Of a DNA stretch of 35,725 nucleotides, positions 7,452 through 14,249 are shown in pieces. Origin of the DNA: a virus; the IMG/VR virus record IMGVR_UViG_3300032173_001511, positions 1-35,725 of that record. One strand, written 5' to 3'. The position numbers and the translations under genes are program-made. Position 1 is the first letter of the stretch. The number at the start of each line of letters is the position of its first letter. The notes below the pieces were generated by a model, which saw nothing but the letters and a program-made list of their open reading frames with translations, did not search any database and was not told the DNA's origin.

Positions 7452-7939
7452 GGATTCCAGTGCACGGGATTGCCGCGCACAGTGAGGGCGCCCGTCGCCT
7501 GGAGGTCCATCGCGCCCCCCGCCACCAGGTGCAGTGCACCCGCCGCCTCGAGGCGCACGTCCCCGGCCGAACTCACGCGGATCTCCGCACTCGCGCCACC
7601 GCTCACCTGAATCTCGAGACGATGCGCCGCGCGGTTGTATTGCACCGTGGTGCCGTCCGAGAACTTCACCATACGGACATCGGCGTCATCGGTGGGCGGT
7701 TGGTCGACGTCGGAGTAGATCGCCCCGAGCACGACACCGCGCACACCCTCCGCGTCGACGAGACAGTAGACCTGCTCCCCGCGTTCGGGGAGCCAGTAGT
7801 ACTGGTCGCCCAGGGTGCGTTGCTGCAGCACGGGCATCCAGAACGACACCAGATTGTCTCGGGCGGGGAAGCGCACGCGCACCTGCGCACGCGCGGAGTC
7901 CACCGTCTCGACGAGTCCGCTCTCAAAGCTGCCCAGCAC
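7448..7939 (-). CDS. V: Baseplate spike protein V (P2 gpV / Mu gp45 family)
   Basis: The 163-residue protein has an N-terminal OB-fold segment ('GLVETVDSARAQVRVRFPARDNLVSFWMPV', 'YWLPERGEQVYCLVD', 'GVVLGAIYS'). A repetitive beta-helix-like C-terminus follows ('LEIQVSGGASAEIRVSSAGDVRLEAAG', 'MDLQATGALTVRG'). This is the layout of membrane-piercing spikes of the gpV/gp5C family. The start is GTG 7937-7939 with an AGAGGTG Shine-Dalgarno site, so the start lies 17 nt inside the D gene. It ends next to the PAAR cap gene, its likely partner. Confidence 0.9.
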   Translation of the reverse strand: MLGSFESGLVETVDSARAQVRVRFPARDNLVSFWMPVLQQRTLGDQYYWLPERGEQVYCLVDAEGVRGVVLGAIYSDVDQPPTDDADVRMVKFSDGTTVQYNRAAHRLEIQVSGGASAEIRVSSAGDVRLEAAGALHLVAGGAMDLQATGALTVRGNPVHWNP

Positions 7940-8969
7940 GCTGCACCTCTATGCTCGTCATGTAGCCCGCGCCCTTGTCGTCGCGGTGCGTGGCTTTGTG
8001 GATGAGATACTTGCCGGTGAGGCGCCCGAACCCGGCGAGATCGATCGCCGAGCCCGCGCAGCAGCGCGGATCGCCCGGCAGTTCGAGCGATCCTTCGATG
8101 CGATGGGCGTTCGCGGCCGCGAGGGCCGCGCGCGCCTGACGATCGGCGTCCGCGTCACTGTCGCAGTGCCCGAACTTCTTGAGCGTGTCACCGCGGCTGA
8201 TGACGCTCGAGCGTACGGTGGCCTTCCGCACCTGGTTGGCGCGCGGATCGTTGTAGCTCACCTCGCACGCGGCGTAGGTGCCCTGCGTCTTCACGGAGAG
8301 CGCGTAGCGCCCGACGTCGGTGCGCGTGATCGTGCGCACCACGCCGGCCGCCTCGAGCGCGGTGCGCTCGTGGAAGACGAGCGACGTGCCCTTCACCGAG
8401 AACACGTAGCCGTAGGTCGCCCCCACGCGCTTGAGGAACTGCAGGTCGCGCTCGGCCGTCTGCGTCACGCGCGCGACGCGCACGCTCGGGTTGATCGTGC
8501 CCACCATGGTAAGGCCGTGCCGCTTGGCCACCGCGCCCGCGATCTCGGCGAGCGTCTGGTCCTCGTACGCCGTGTGGCGCACCGTGCGCAGCGTGGGCGA
8601 GACGAGGGCGGCCAGGGCCTTGAGCGTCACCTGGTCGGGCGGTCCCGTGAACTCGGGCTCGTCGATCTCGAACGTGCCCGCCTCGAGGAGCGCGCGATCG
8701 CGGTACCCGAAACGGAGCGTCAGGCGATCACCCTTCTCGGGGAACCAGCTGTCCATCCACCGCGGGGCGCGACCGACGCCCGCCGGCACGTGCGTCAAGG
8801 TCAGCTCGAGGGAGTCGCTCTCACCCTGCAGCGCGTCGGTGTAGACGATACTGAGCACGTCGGGCGCGATCGCCTGCGTGATGTTGCGCCCCTTGTACGT
8901 GAGCTCCCACGCGGGCGTCGGCACCGCGACGTTGCCAGGTGAGGCGAGGAGCGGATCGTCAGCGGCCAT
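7923..8969 (-). CDS. D: Late control protein D / tail hub (P2 gpD, T4 gp27-like)
   Basis: The 348-residue protein matches the phage late control gene D family. It has an N-terminal 'AWELTYKGRNITQAI', 'DSLELTLTH', then 'FPEKGDRLTLRFGY', 'ERDLQFLKRVGATYGYVFSVKGTSLVFHE', 'YNDPRANQ' and a C-terminal 'YLIHKATHRDDKGAGYMTSIEV'. The family forms the trimeric hub joining tail tube and spike. The name 'late control' is historical (P2 Ogr suppressor) and does not imply regulation here. It is 3 nt downstream of X and overlaps V. Confidence 0.93.
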   Translation of the reverse strand: MAADDPLLASPGNVAVPTPAWELTYKGRNITQAIAPDVLSIVYTDALQGESDSLELTLTHVPAGVGRAPRWMDSWFPEKGDRLTLRFGYRDRALLEAGTFEIDEPEFTGPPDQVTLKALAALVSPTLRTVRHTAYEDQTLAEIAGAVAKRHGLTMVGTINPSVRVARVTQTAERDLQFLKRVGATYGYVFSVKGTSLVFHERTALEAAGVVRTITRTDVGRYALSVKTQGTYAACEVSYNDPRANQVRKATVRSSVISRGDTLKKFGHCDSDADADRQARAALAAANAHRIEGSLELPGDPRCCAGSAIDLAGFGRLTGKYLIHKATHRDDKGAGYMTSIEVQRAGQL

Positions 8970-8972
8970 CGC

Positions 8973-9212
8973 TCACTGCCTCCACGGCGGCAGGTCCGTC
9001 GTGTCGACCGTCGGCGCGGTCACGATCGGAATGCGCACGGTGGACCCGACGGGCAGCATCGGCGTGATGGCCAGCTCGGGATTGGCGCGCACGATGCGCG
9101 CATACGCGGTGGGGTCGCCGTAGTAGCGCATCGCCAGGTGATCCCAGCGCTCGCCCTGCACGGTCACGTGCACGAGCTCGTCCCCGGTCAGCGTGCCGGC
9201 GACGTCCGTCAT
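8973..9212 (-). CDS. X: Tail protein X, LysM-like (79 aa)
   Basis: The small protein has the LysM-type pattern of P2 gpX: 'VTVQGERWDHLAMRYYGDPTAYARIVRANPEL' and then 'LPVGSTVRIP'. Such proteins are found beside U and D in P2-type tails and act in tail assembly, possibly by binding the tube or hub. The ATG at 9210-9212 overlaps the U stop as ATGA, and D follows after 3 nt. Confidence 0.9.
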   Translation of the reverse strand: MTDVAGTLTGDELVHVTVQGERWDHLAMRYYGDPTAYARIVRANPELAITPMLPVGSTVRIPIVTAPTVDTTDLPPWRQ

Positions 9213-9754
9213 CGCGCACTCCGCGTGCTCACCCGCACGGGCACCGCCGCGTGCGGTACGTTGGCACGGGCCCCGCGGACGGAGCGCTTGCGTCGCGTGG
9301 CGGGAGCCGCAGTGTTCGTGCGCACGGCGGGACCGCGGCCCGTGGCGGCCGGCGCGGCCGAGGGATCGTCGGCGTACTCGAGCAGCTCCACCGTAACCGA
9401 GGCAGCGAGCAGCTCGCCGCTGGCCGACGTGCGCTCTTCGGTCACGCTGAGCTTGGTGATGACGAAGCGGCCGAGAACCTCGCCTGTACCCATCACGAGC
9501 GGCATCGCCGCGCGGGCCATCTGCGCCGTACGCAGCTGCTCGATCTGCGCGCGCGGCGTGCGGTCTCCGTAGAACGTGGAGAGCCGGAGCGTCAACGTGT
9601 GCGTCGCGAGCTCGCTGCCCGTCGCCTGCAGGCGCGGCTTGCCCTCGATCACCGGCTGTTGCGCGAACTGCTCGGCATAGACGGACGCCAGTCCCTCGAC
9701 CGTGGGATCGGTCGCGAACCGGATGTCGCCGAGCTGCGCCCAGGGGGGACTCAT
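9209..9754 (-). CDS. U: Tail protein U (P2 gpU family)
   Basis: The 181-residue protein matches gpU: 'LGDIRFA' near the N-terminus, 'ATGSELATHTLTLRLSTFYG', 'LRTAQMARAAMPLVMGTGEVLGRFVITKLSVTEE' and 'VTVELLEYADD'. A basic Ala/Arg-rich tail of about 50 residues follows, beyond the usual family length. gpU is a minor tail protein following the tape measure in P2. The start is ATG 9752-9754, 10 nt after the tape measure stop. Confidence 0.87.
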   Translation of the reverse strand: MSPPWAQLGDIRFATDPTVEGLASVYAEQFAQQPVIEGKPRLQATGSELATHTLTLRLSTFYGDRTPRAQIEQLRTAQMARAAMPLVMGTGEVLGRFVITKLSVTEERTSASGELLAASVTVELLEYADDPSAAPAATGRGPAVRTNTAAPATRRKRSVRGARANVPHAAVPVRVSTRSAR

Positions 9755-9764
9755 CGCGATCGCC

Positions 9765-11777
9765 TCAGAAGCTCGTGCGGTGCGTGCCGCTCAATGTGGC
9801 CAGCAGCTCGCGCTTCATGGCCTCGAGCTGCCGGCGGTGCGCCGCCTCGAGGCTGCTTGTATCGAAGCCCGAGGGCGCGGTGATGGTGAGTGGCGCGTGG
9901 ATCGTGATGTGGATGCCTCCGCCGGTCGCGCCGCCCGCTCCCGTGGCGCCGGCTAGTGCGACGCCCGTCGCGACGCGCCGCATGGCGAGGATCGCGGGGC
10001 CCGGACGCATCGCCTCGGCCAGCGTCTCCACCAGACGTACGCGGTGGAGATCCCGGAGCGGTCCTTCCTTCGCCGGCGAGAAGGGGAGGAACGCGCGGAT
10101 CTTCGTGGCGATCGCCCGCATCGCCTCGACGGGCCTTGAGGCCGTCGCCTTGATGCCTTCCCACAGCATCGTGCCGAGATTCGCCCCGGCGTCGCGAAGC
10201 CGCGCGCCCAGCGCGCGGAACTCCGTGGAGAGCACGCGCCAATGCTTGATCACCATGTAGACGGCTGCGCCCACGGCGAGCAGTGCGAGCACGACCCATG
10301 TCATCGGGTTGGCGAGCAGCGCCGTGGTGAACGCCCACGTGCTCGCGGCGGCCGCGCGCAATCCGGCGGCCGAGAACAGACTGGCCGTGCCGGTCGCGGT
10401 CTGAATCACGGTCAGCTTGCGGAGCCAGTCGCCGAGGTACATCGCGCGCAGCGCGCCGCCCTGCAGCGCACTGCTCATGAACTTGAGGATGGCCGGATAC
10501 TTGCCGAGGCCGGTGAGCGCGAAGCCGATCGTCTGGCCCACGGCGCCCATGGTGACGAGCAGCGCACCGCCGCCAATCAGCCCGGCCGAGATCCAGACCA
10601 GCCACTTGGCGAGGCCAGGATGATCGCCGATCGTGCGCAGCAATGACACCACCGTCTTGAGCACAGGCGTCAAGCCCGGCATCGCGATCTTCGCGACCAG
10701 CACGTGCAGCTTCACGAACTGCGCCATCGCCGTACTCATGATATTGAGGAAGTTCTTATTGACGAGCCCCTTCGCCCCGAAGGCGCTATCGCGGATATCC
10801 TCGTACTTCTGCAGGTCCGCCATCATCGGCTTCAGGAAGTTCAGGACCTGCGCATCCTGAAAGAGCTCCCCGATCTTGAACATGTCGCCGCCGCTCACTT
10901 GCTTGACGAGCTGCACCATGGCGAGGATCGGATCTTCGCCCTTCGCGATCGCCGACTTGAGTTCCGACTGCAGGTCCACGCCGAACTTCTTGAAGTTCAT
11001 CACCGCCTGCGGCATCAAGATGGCCTTCATGAAGTTCGCCAGATTGTTGGCCGCTTCCTCGGGCGAGCCGGCGCCGATCTTCGCGACCTGCAGCGCGGCG
11101 CCAAGCTGCGCCACCGCGCGGATGCCGGTCATGCTGAAGGACTGTGCCCCCGCGGTCAACATGGGGAAGTAGCGCGCCATGTCCTTCATCTCGAACGCAC
11201 CCAGCTGGCCCGCCTGGGCCGCCGCCTCGAGGGCCCCCTGCAGTTCGCCGGGCATCACCTTGAGGTTCTGCATCATCGCAAAGGACGCCTTCGCGAGATC
11301 GTTCACATCGGCGCCCATGGCCGTCGCGGTCCGGCCGATCGCGGGCAACGCCGCCATCGCCGACGTGAAGTCCAGGCCGCTCGACGTCAGCGTGGCGAGC
11401 CCCGCAATGAGATCGCCCTGCGTCTGGTTGGTTAGGACCGCCAGATCGAGGAGTTGCGAATGCGCCCTGCGGAGCTGCTCATTGGTGAGGTCCGCCACGT
11501 TGCCGATGCTGCGTAGCTGGTACTGCGCATCGACCGCCTGTCCGGGGAGCTGCGTGAGGCCGATGGCGGCGCCGAGCCCGAGACCCGCCGCGCCGGCGAT
11601 GAGTCCGGCATTGCGGGCGCTGCGCCCCACATCGTCCATCTGCTGCCCCAGCTTCTTCAGCCCCGCCGTGTTCTTCGCGGCACGGTCCAGCGCCTCGACG
11701 CCGCGTGTCATGGCGCGGATCGGGGCACTGAACTGGTCGACGGCCTTCACCAACAGGCCGAACTCGAGGAGCTTCAT
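9765..11777 (-). CDS. Tail tape measure protein (670 aa)
   Basis: The protein starts MKLLEFGLLVKAVDQFSAPIRAM, the typical tape-measure opening. A minor-tail conserved domain follows (~residues 80-340) with 'AQYQLRSIGNVADLTNEQL' and 'NNLANFMKAILMPQAV'. Long hydrophobic segments lie at ~385-430 ('WLVWISAGLIGGGALLVTMGAVGQTIGFAL') and ~485-510 ('WVVLALLAVGAAVYMVI'). Near the C-terminus 'FLPFSPAKEGPLRDL' is a motif widely seen in tape measures. The length sets tail length; 670 residues implies a fairly short tail. It is the longest tail gene and lies between the chaperone and U. Confidence 0.95.
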   Translation of the reverse strand: MKLLEFGLLVKAVDQFSAPIRAMTRGVEALDRAAKNTAGLKKLGQQMDDVGRSARNAGLIAGAAGLGLGAAIGLTQLPGQAVDAQYQLRSIGNVADLTNEQLRRAHSQLLDLAVLTNQTQGDLIAGLATLTSSGLDFTSAMAALPAIGRTATAMGADVNDLAKASFAMMQNLKVMPGELQGALEAAAQAGQLGAFEMKDMARYFPMLTAGAQSFSMTGIRAVAQLGAALQVAKIGAGSPEEAANNLANFMKAILMPQAVMNFKKFGVDLQSELKSAIAKGEDPILAMVQLVKQVSGGDMFKIGELFQDAQVLNFLKPMMADLQKYEDIRDSAFGAKGLVNKNFLNIMSTAMAQFVKLHVLVAKIAMPGLTPVLKTVVSLLRTIGDHPGLAKWLVWISAGLIGGGALLVTMGAVGQTIGFALTGLGKYPAILKFMSSALQGGALRAMYLGDWLRKLTVIQTATGTASLFSAAGLRAAAASTWAFTTALLANPMTWVVLALLAVGAAVYMVIKHWRVLSTEFRALGARLRDAGANLGTMLWEGIKATASRPVEAMRAIATKIRAFLPFSPAKEGPLRDLHRVRLVETLAEAMRPGPAILAMRRVATGVALAGATGAGGATGGGIHITIHAPLTITAPSGFDTSSLEAAHRRQLEAMKRELLATLSGTHRTSF

Positions 11778-11820: not shown

Positions 11821-11946
11821 CTAGTCGCTGCCCTCGGGTGAGGCGAAGGTGTCGGCGGCCTGGTGAATCAACCAGGAGAGATCTTCAATCGACCGCTCCT
11901 CGAGCTCCGACAGCGAGGAGCTCGTGAGGCGGGCGAGTTGCATCAT
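11821..11946 (-). CDS. Downstream frame of tail chaperone (GpE'-like), reached by -1 frameshift
   Basis: This 41-codon frame begins ATGATG at 11946, overlapping the stop of the upstream chaperone gene (ATGA), and ends TAG at 11821-11823. It encodes 'LSELEERSIEDLSWLIHQAADTF', an acidic amphipathic helix typical of the E'/T part of tail chaperones just ahead of the tape measure. It is in the -1 frame of 11943-12272 and stays open back to the GGGTTTT heptamer at 11973-11979. It is therefore probably mainly made as a fusion: about 100 upstream residues plus 50 residues, 150 in total. Independent initiation at the ATG is also possible. Confidence 0.75.
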   Translation of the reverse strand: MMQLARLTSSSLSELEERSIEDLSWLIHQAADTFASPEGSD

Positions 11947-12272
11947 ATCGGTGTAGCTGGGACACCCATCCGAAAACCCCCGGTCACCGCGCTGACCAGC
12001 GCCATGACGTCCTCGAGATCGCGTTCCATCAGCTCCTCGTAGATGACCGGCGCGCCATCGATGGCACAGAGCTGCGCGACGAGCGCGAACGGAATGCCAT
12101 CCGTGGACGTGCCCGCGATCTGCATCGCGCGCATGAGGTCCTTGCCCTTGCCCTTCCGGATGACGGCACGCGCGCCACTGGGCAGCGTCAGCACGCTGCC
12201 CTCGCTGGCGACGGCAGCGGGGACAGGGGCGGCAGCCGCGCTTGCGGCCACCGCATCAGTCTTGGTGCCCAT
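11943..12272 (-). CDS. Tail assembly chaperone (Mu gp41 / P2 E-like), 109 aa
   Basis: The 109-residue protein has a low-complexity Ala-rich N-terminus. The core is 'LPSGARAVIRKGKGKDLMRAMQIAG' and 'FALVAQLCAIDGAPVIYEELMERDLEDVMALVSAV', the pattern of gp41/gpE-type tail assembly chaperones located between the tube and tape measure genes. Such proteins coat the tape measure before tube polymerisation and are not in the virion. Near the 3' end the codons GGG GGT TTT form a slippery site leading into the next small frame, the arrangement known from lambda G-GT and P2 E-E'. Confidence 0.85.
   Translation of the reverse strand: MGTKTDAVAASAAAAPVPAAVASEGSVLTLPSGARAVIRKGKGKDLMRAMQIAGTSTDGIPFALVAQLCAIDGAPVIYEELMERDLEDVMALVSAVTGGFRMGVPATPI
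11973..11979 (-). other. Predicted -1 programmed ribosomal frameshift site (G GGT TTT)
   Basis: On the minus strand the heptamer GGGTTTT lies in zero frame as G_GGT_TTT, an exact X_XXY_YYZ pattern, ten codons before the TGA of the chaperone gene (counting that TGA). A -1 slip enters the frame that runs open through ATGATG to TAG at 11821. Position, direction and gene context match tail chaperone frameshifts of other contractile and siphophage tails. Confidence 0.8.
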
Positions 12273-12275
12273 CGG

Positions 12276-12803
12276 TTAGCCTCCCATGATCTGCCGCGTC
12301 TCGGCGAGCAGATCCACGCCGTTGACCCGGTAGATGTTGTTGATGACGTCGACCTCGACGACCTCGACGCCGTCGATCACCTGTTTCATGTACGTGACCG
12401 AGAGCATCGACTCGGTGTCGACGCTCTCGTGTTGCTTGAAGCCGCCGCCCGTGGTGCCCTTGAAGCGACCTTGAATGGTCATCACAGCCGCCGACAGACC
12501 AGAGCGACCGGCGCCGACGTACGACTCGACGGCCGCGCGCACCTCGAGGTCCACGGCATCGAAGTGATTGTGCGCGATCCTCATGACGTCGACGTCGTAC
12601 GCGTTCGCCCACTTGATCTTCATCTCCATCTTGTCGAGCCCGGCCGGGAACTCGGTGCGGCCGTGGAGGCCGAGGCCCTTGTGCTCCTGCTGCGTCGACT
12701 TGAGCTCAGGCAAGGTCACCTCCTCCGCCTTGCCCATCCAACTGCCGCCGCGGACATAGATGTTGGCGTTGGTGACACGCCGCACGCTGATCTTGCTGGC
12801 CAT
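12276..12803 (-). CDS. Major tail tube protein (P2 FII family)
   Basis: The 175-residue protein has 'RRVTNANIYVRGGSWMGKAEEVTLPELKS', 'GLHGRTEFPAGLDKMEMKIKW', 'GRFKGTTGGGFKQHESVDTESMLSVTYMKQVIDG' and a C-terminal 'VDVINNIYRVNGVDLLAE', the hallmarks of the P2 FII tail tube family. It forms the inner tube inside the sheath. The start is ATG 12801-12803 with GGGAG upstream, and the gene follows the sheath gene directly. Confidence 0.93.
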   Translation of the reverse strand: MASKISVRRVTNANIYVRGGSWMGKAEEVTLPELKSTQQEHKGLGLHGRTEFPAGLDKMEMKIKWANAYDVDVMRIAHNHFDAVDLEVRAAVESYVGAGRSGLSAAVMTIQGRFKGTTGGGFKQHESVDTESMLSVTYMKQVIDGVEVVEVDVINNIYRVNGVDLLAETRQIMGG

Positions 12804-12806
12804 GGG

Positions 12807-14249
12807 TTACGCTCCCTGCGCGACGTTCAGGCCGCGCAGCAGGGTGGTGTCGATCGTGGTCTCGAACGTGATGCGTTCCGCCGGAGGCGGCGGCATGAAC
12901 CCGAGGTCGAAACAGAGGTGCCCGAGCGCGAGCTCACTGTCCGCGTTCTTCGCGGGATCGTACGTGCACCGCCCGTCGATGAGCGCGCCGCGTCCGACCA
13001 GCGTACGGATGTAGGCATTCACGCTGTTCGTGATCGCGTCGATCAGCGCAGGCGTAATCGGCCGGTCGATAAAGTTGAGCAGCTCCATCTCGAGCGAATC
13101 GCTGATCAGGTCCGCGACGCGCCGCACGGGGAAGAACGTGTTGGGCGTCGCGGCGGCGGGGAACGCCGCACTGCGGTTGCCCCACGCCCTGATGCCACCG
13201 CCGAAGCGCGCGGCCAGCGTGGTGATGCCCTGCTCGTTGAGCGCGTTGATCTCGCTCGTCGTGCCCCCGTCGCTCGTCAGCGGCCGTTCGAGGCCGACGA
13301 GGCCGCGCAACTCCTGGTTGGACGGCGAGACCCAGAAGCCTTCCGTCTCATCGGTCGCGGCGATGAGACCGGCGAGCCACTGACTGAGGGGCTCGGTCGC
13401 GATGCCGCCCGCGCCGTCGGACGTCTTGACGTGCGGGTAGCAGAGCACCACGCGATCGCTCGCCGTGGCCAACGCCTGGCCCACGGTGCCTCGGTACGCG
13501 ATCGCGTTGGCCACCGTGGTGCCGGCGGCCGCGTCAATGAGCGCGATCGCCCGCAACGTCGTCGCGAGCGTGGTGAGCGCGGTGGCCACCGTGGCGACAC
13601 TCGCGTATCCGGGCGCGATGAGGATCTTCGGCGCGAAGCCGAGGAGCGCGGATGCGTCGAGCCATGCCTGGGCGCCGCTTCGCACGCCCGCCTCCACCGT
13701 GCCGATCACCTCGGCCCCCGTCACCGCGGTCGGATCGGGCCGATCGTAGTTGATCTTGATCGTCGCGCCGGCGTCGATGTCGCCCGCCGCGAGGCGCGTC
13801 ACCGTGCCCTTGACGCTGTTGAGCGTGTAGTCCACGTCGACGTCGTAGGTCGTCGCGCCGGTGCTGTCCTTCACCACCACGCTCTGCACGCCGACGTCCG
13901 GCAGCTGGACGATGTCCGACGCCGGTAGCACGAACTCCGCGGCCACGACGGCCGCCTTGTGCGTCGCCAGGTCGAGCACGTTCACGACGATGATCGTGGC
14001 CGCGCCCTGCGCCTGCGCCGCGCGAATGGCAGCCGGGATCGTGTACCCCGCCGCGCTCGCCGGGCCGAAGTACTTCTCGGCGTCGCGGTCACTGCGAATC
14101 ACGACCGGCGTGTTGAGCGTGCGATCGGCTTCGGCGACGGCCCACATCGGCGCGGTGCCGACGAGGCCGATGACGGCGCTGCGCACGGTGCGGATCGGCC
14201 GGGACCCGCTGGTCTTCTCGATGATTTCCGGCCCGTGAAGGAACGTCAT
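12807..14249 (-). CDS. L: Tail sheath protein (P2 FI / Mu L family), 480 aa
   Basis: The N-terminus 'FLHGPEIIEKTSGSRPIRTVRSAVIGLVGTAP' is the canonical sheath opening. Internal 'YTIPAAIRAAQAQGAATIIVVNVLD' and C-terminal 'WGNRSA', 'FFPVRRVADLISDSLEMELLNFIDRPITPALIDAI' and 'RCTYDPAKNADSELALGHLCFDLGFMPPPPAERITFE' match the contractile sheath family. The protein contracts around the tube during injection. The start is ATG 14247-14249 with AGGAGAG about 9 nt upstream. It establishes that the phage is a myovirus. Confidence 0.96.
   Translation of the reverse strand: MTFLHGPEIIEKTSGSRPIRTVRSAVIGLVGTAPMWAVAEADRTLNTPVVIRSDRDAEKYFGPASAAGYTIPAAIRAAQAQGAATIIVVNVLDLATHKAAVVAAEFVLPASDIVQLPDVGVQSVVVKDSTGATTYDVDVDYTLNSVKGTVTRLAAGDIDAGATIKINYDRPDPTAVTGAEVIGTVEAGVRSGAQAWLDASALLGFAPKILIAPGYASVATVATALTTLATTLRAIALIDAAAGTTVANAIAYRGTVGQALATASDRVVLCYPHVKTSDGAGGIATEPLSQWLAGLIAATDETEGFWVSPSNQELRGLVGLERPLTSDGGTTSEINALNEQGITTLAARFGGGIRAWGNRSAAFPAAATPNTFFPVRRVADLISDSLEMELLNFIDRPITPALIDAITNSVNAYIRTLVGRGALIDGRCTYDPAKNADSELALGHLCFDLGFMPPPPAERITFETTIDTTLLRGLNVAQGA

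Follow-up and report, generated by a model that had tools for sequence, protein, structure and literature searches.

Does the small gene that lies between the tail tube and tape measure genes of this phage yield a single protein of 109 amino acids, or is a longer fusion also made from it through slippage of the ribosome into the -1 frame? Frameshifting in tail chaperone genes is a classic and conserved feature of phages, and shifts of -1, -2 and +1 have been described in different phages (PMC5009743). The locus was analysed within a window that comprises a whole IMG/VR virus record of 35,725 bp. MuA- and MuB-like genes lie close to one end of the window, and the gene of 109 aa is found in the following surroundings.

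12276 to 12803, minus strand: tail tube protein (Phage_tube, FII type), upstream neighbour (Pfam, PHROGs)
9765 to 11777, minus strand: tail tape measure protein, downstream neighbour (Pfam, PHROGs)
12807 to 14249: sheath, contractile-tail module
9209 to 9754: GpU, contractile-tail module
7923 to 8969: GpD, contractile-tail module

Mu-type transposition genes (MuA, MuB) are present alongside P2-type tail genes (FII tube, GpU, GpD) on the minus strand between 7923 and 34812. The order of the genes is tube, E, E' and tape measure; with these neighbours, the 109-aa gene occupies the usual place of the G/GT and E/E' chaperone genes. The arrangement just before the tape measure, which an earlier note on this DNA had recognised, is thus borne out. 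The short form matches phrog_21320, a PHROG of unknown function (2.4e-20), and a chaperone profile built without the window matches the gene at 7.6e-19, the first seed relatives of that profile having come from a search with the window protein. The 109-aa protein itself gave no match to Phage_TAC_7 (PF10109; E, 41 or 14) at an E-value of 0.01, and this family was matched by 9 of the 13 short forms in its alignment (best 6.2e-23). Synteny and relatives support the assignment of the gene as a tail assembly chaperone of the E/gp41 type. The site at its end has the following features.

11943 to 12272, minus strand: zero-frame ORF of the E/gp41-type tail assembly chaperone, short form of 109 aa (assigned by phrog_21320, the family profile and Phage_TAC_7 in relatives)
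11973 to 11979, minus strand: predicted slippery heptamer G_GGT_TTT (register, family position, codon rarity)
11821 to 11973, minus strand: -1 frame extension, 50 aa and a stop, homologous by the extension profile to the E' of relatives
11943 to 11946, minus strand: ATGA, the zero-frame TGA overlapping a -1-frame ATG; possible reinitiation site (sequence)
11950 to 11966, minus strand: weak 5-bp hairpin GGTGT/ACACC, starting 6 nt past the heptamer and no better than shuffled sequence

The short form begins with the ATG at 12272 and ends at the TGA at 11945-11943. Its codons GGT (11978-11976) and TTT (11975-11973) place GGGTTTT (11979-11973) in X_XXY_YYZ register, exactly as the earlier note had described, and this is the sole in-register heptamer of the 109-aa ORF. 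The heptamer lies 36 nt before the zero-frame stop, and from here the -1 frame is open for 50 aa. A -1 slip would join 100 residues to these 50 through the junction GGF-SDG. The open -1 frame up to the TAG at 11821, the fusion of 150 residues and the short form of 109 residues, all proposed beforehand, were confirmed from the ORF translation. The -1 frame in fact opens directly after a stop at 12258-12256, with 313 nt free of stops ahead of the zero-frame stop, and at a GC content of 68.6% this openness by itself is weak evidence.

The homology of the extension was assessed through relatives. Single-protein searches with the 109-aa protein in viral, genome and phage collections found no relatives, and the tape measure protein found none among viral contigs. 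A sheath search gave 7 loci, which were left out of the later analysis, and usable relatives came from tail tube alignments, which led to 80 viral loci and later to 73 bacterial-genome loci and more viral loci. All of these relatives are distant, with a best tail tube identity of about 50%; eight phage records were inspected directly. The frame of E' in each relative was assigned with an iterated profile from which the extension of the window was left out throughout. In two rounds this profile picked the -1 frame of the window (1.7e-4 and 4.4e-4), and the +1 frame gave no match to it (5.3 and 6.6). The extension was the top scorer among all six-frame ORFs of the window, and none of 5000 shuffles of its 50 residues reached its profile score. 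Its score is low (11 to 14 bits), so the strength of the match is relative, not one of absolute score. Phage_P2_GpE (PF06528) was not matched by the window extension at an E-value of 0.1 and was matched by 5 of the 11 extensions in the alignment (best 3.9e-14). On these comparisons, homology between the -1 ORF of the window and the E' extension of the relatives is supported.

Among the relatives, the presence of a heptamer goes with the frame of the extension. Where E' occupies the -1 frame, the overlap contains an in-register heptamer in 55 of 58 distinct relatives (11.4 expected from codon shuffling); where it occupies the +1/-2 frame, this holds for only 2 of 77 (6.2 expected), a difference with a Fisher p of 1.5e-31 when the relatedness of the loci is ignored. 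The heptamers seen are GGGAAAG (16), AAATTTT (16), TTTTTTG (11), TTTTTTA (4) and others. GGGTTTT recurs once, in locus L160, inside GGGTTTTTTC; the heptamer differs among relatives, and hence GGGTTTT itself is not conserved. The window heptamer falls at position 123 of the family model, the modal place of the family, within a cluster at positions 122 to 126 to which 40 of 63 counted loci belong. The alignment check proposed in the earlier note has a divided outcome in these distant relatives: a -1-frame extension comes with a slippery heptamer at the same place, and GGGTTTT as such varies. That note had named the absence of heptamer and open -1 frame from close relatives as evidence against slippage; among the distant relatives compared here, such an absence was not observed.

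Some individual loci deserve mention. Three relatives of the -1 class have no in-register X_XXY_YYZ, namely Xanthomonas phage FoX3 (L016:2193-2620), L071:3512-3906 and L189; the GGC_CGT_TTT_ACC of FoX3 could permit a slip of a single tRNA on TTT. At L204:3749-4129 and L206:3520-3765 the chaperone and extension profiles both score in one frame, and these could be either borderline matches or real in-frame fusions.

A conserved -1 frameshift of the E/E' type at G_GGT_TTT is very probably what this site encodes. We infer a slippage of limited efficiency, in which most ribosomes would complete the 109-aa E-like protein and a minority would slip back by one base on the heptamer to produce the 150-aa E-E' fusion. 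Most simply, the Gly and Phe tRNAs would slip in tandem, from GGT to GGG and from TTT to TTT; the pairing of Phe would be unchanged and that of Gly altered at the wobble base alone. On the model of lambda G/GT and P2 E/E', the short form would attach to the tape measure protein and the long form would bring in tail tube subunits through its C-terminal domain, and the ratio of short to long form would matter for assembly. These are the roles of the two chaperone products as in lambda, and with mammalian ribosomes G_GGU_UUU ranks with the heptamers that shift most readily (PMC5009743). As for stimulatory signals, folding downstream of the heptamer was not exceptional when compared with shuffles (z of -0.96 and 0.07), no Shine-Dalgarno-like stimulator was seen by eye upstream, and Rfam gave no match anywhere in the window. 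An 8-bp hairpin, CGAGCTCC/GGAGCTCG, is located within the -1 extension (11924-11901, minus strand), 48 nt past the heptamer, which is far for a usual stimulator.

The alternative that survives best, though an improbable one, is that the -1 ORF is a separate gene of 41 aa, translated by termination-reinitiation at the ATGA at 11946-11943, with no fusion. The ATGATG of the window in the -1 frame overlaps the zero-frame TGA, and in 9 of 57 distinct loci of the -1 class, counting the window, an ATG follows the heptamer ahead of the conserved block. However, 42 of the 57 offer no start codon (ATG, GTG or TTG) in the -1 frame upstream of that block, and reinitiation can hence not be the mechanism of the family. 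Besides, the alignment with the relatives extends to residues upstream of the ATG (PSYTD vs PSPQQ), no Shine-Dalgarno sequence was seen ahead of the ATG, and a heptamer made of rare codons would be left unexplained. Rather than replacing the frameshift, reinitiation at the ATGA could add a minor third product.

Much less probable again is a chance origin of both the heptamer and the open -1 frame in a high-GC sequence, with an untranslated extension. When the codons of the last 150 nt are shuffled, an in-register heptamer of some kind arises 19% of the time, so the heptamer on its own is only suggestive, and the window does contain many long open off-frames. The sequence GGGTTTT occurs a single time in the whole window when the two strands are counted. 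Thirteen other minus-strand ORFs (4647 codons) contain one in-register X_XXY_YYZ (GGGCCCC), and none in which Y is A or T. Both codons of the site are rare in the window, TTT accounting for 7.9% of Phe codons and GGT for 10.1% of Gly codons. These points weigh more than the openness of the -1 frame. An accident is at odds with these rare codons, with the homology of the extension, with the family position and with the split among the relatives (55/58 vs 2/77); position, codon rarity and extension homology together make the heptamer convincing. Equally remote is a sequencing error or a decayed gene in which E and E' are truly one reading frame, an explanation that a single metagenomic-type virus record without a close relative for comparison may invite, but the surveyed relatives as a rule have E and E' in different frames (L204 and L206 are possible exceptions).

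The chaperone frameshifts of P2 E/E' and lambda G/GT were reportedly described by Xu, Hendrix and Duda in 2004. The P2 heptamer is T_TTT_TTG and the lambda heptamer is G_GGA_AAG, unlike the G_GGT_TTT of the window. Both systems, which have been reviewed (PMC5009743), share with the window the order of tube, chaperone and tape measure and, as predicted for the window, two forms from one start through a -1 slip shortly before the first ORF ends. P2 is linked further through the relatives of the window extension that match the domain of its GpE. The earlier note had considered that this heptamer may be unrecorded in a Mu-like phage of this type. For phages at large the suggestion does not hold, as a proposal of GGGTTTT exists for the tail chaperone of the Burkholderia myophage PhiE067 (PMC7266877). 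In this temperate myovirus the same 5'-GGGTTTT-3' is assigned to the tape-measure chaperone ORF16/16.1, there too as a prediction (PMC7266877). The PhiE067 products are larger than those of the window (shift at G127, 204 aa), and the likeness noted is that of the heptamer. With this proposal and the classic standing of chaperone frameshifting, the window would represent a further example of a known phage mechanism.

Phage Mu shares with the window the transposing type and the position of the gene, and its gp41 matches the family profile, though very remotely (10.8 bits). Mu gp41 shifts by -2 (PMC5009743, PMC2628397), whereas the extension homologue of the window is in the -1 frame (E of 6.6 for the +1 frame), and a Mu-type -2 shift does not fit the window. 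ORF32 of Pasteurella phage AFS-2018a (L015), annotated as a tail assembly protein, has a homologous -1 extension; it carries an in-register GGGAAAG right before the stop, unlike the GGGTTTT of the window, and the frameshift is not annotated in the record. The records of KP12 (L009), PhiKM (L010) and AFS-2018a all have the chaperone ORF annotated, with no joined frameshift product and with E' not assigned to the chaperone.

The relatives with E' in the +1/-2 frame form a sister branch with a different candidate site. Counted over distinct loci and unweighted for kinship among them, 50 of 52 use TTT for the conserved Phe close to where the domain ends, with C as the next base in 47 of 52 and CGA as the preceding codon in 26, and in 52/52 the +1 frame stays open between this Phe codon and the extension; elsewhere in the same genes the ratio of TTT to TTC is 65:64. 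The motif finder missed about 35 listed sister-branch loci (duplicates included), nearly all of which have F followed by R or Q there. The pattern NNN_UUU_C is near-invariant, often as CGA_UUU_CAG or GCC_UUU_CGC (for example, L009:3842-4325, L011:3489-3978 and L082:3520-3768). In bacteria, UUU_Ynn is prone to +1 shifting (PMC5009743), and the shift site of influenza PA-X reads UCC_UUU_CGU (PMC3498833). The near-invariant UUU_C, considered with these two precedents, suggests that the sister branch shifts +1 rather than -2, at a candidate site of the PA-X type. A literature search found no report of UUU_C +1 shifting in phage tail chaperone genes. The GGT TTT CGG of the window contains the heptamer and UUU_C motifs together, and the -1 frame alone leads to E'. 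We lean towards the view that the direction of recoding has switched near the same spot within one family, with -1 heptamers in the branch of the window and +1 NNN_UUU_C in the sister branch.

The frame of E' goes with the kind of shift site, either heptamer or UUU_C, and this tie could help to annotate such genes. Direction switching within one gene family becomes testable with reporters through the family survey. The window itself, from a Mu-like phage of high GC content, gives good support for one more case of a conserved route by which two forms of a tail chaperone would be made, and it supplies annotators with a predicted product of 150 aa that gene callers miss.
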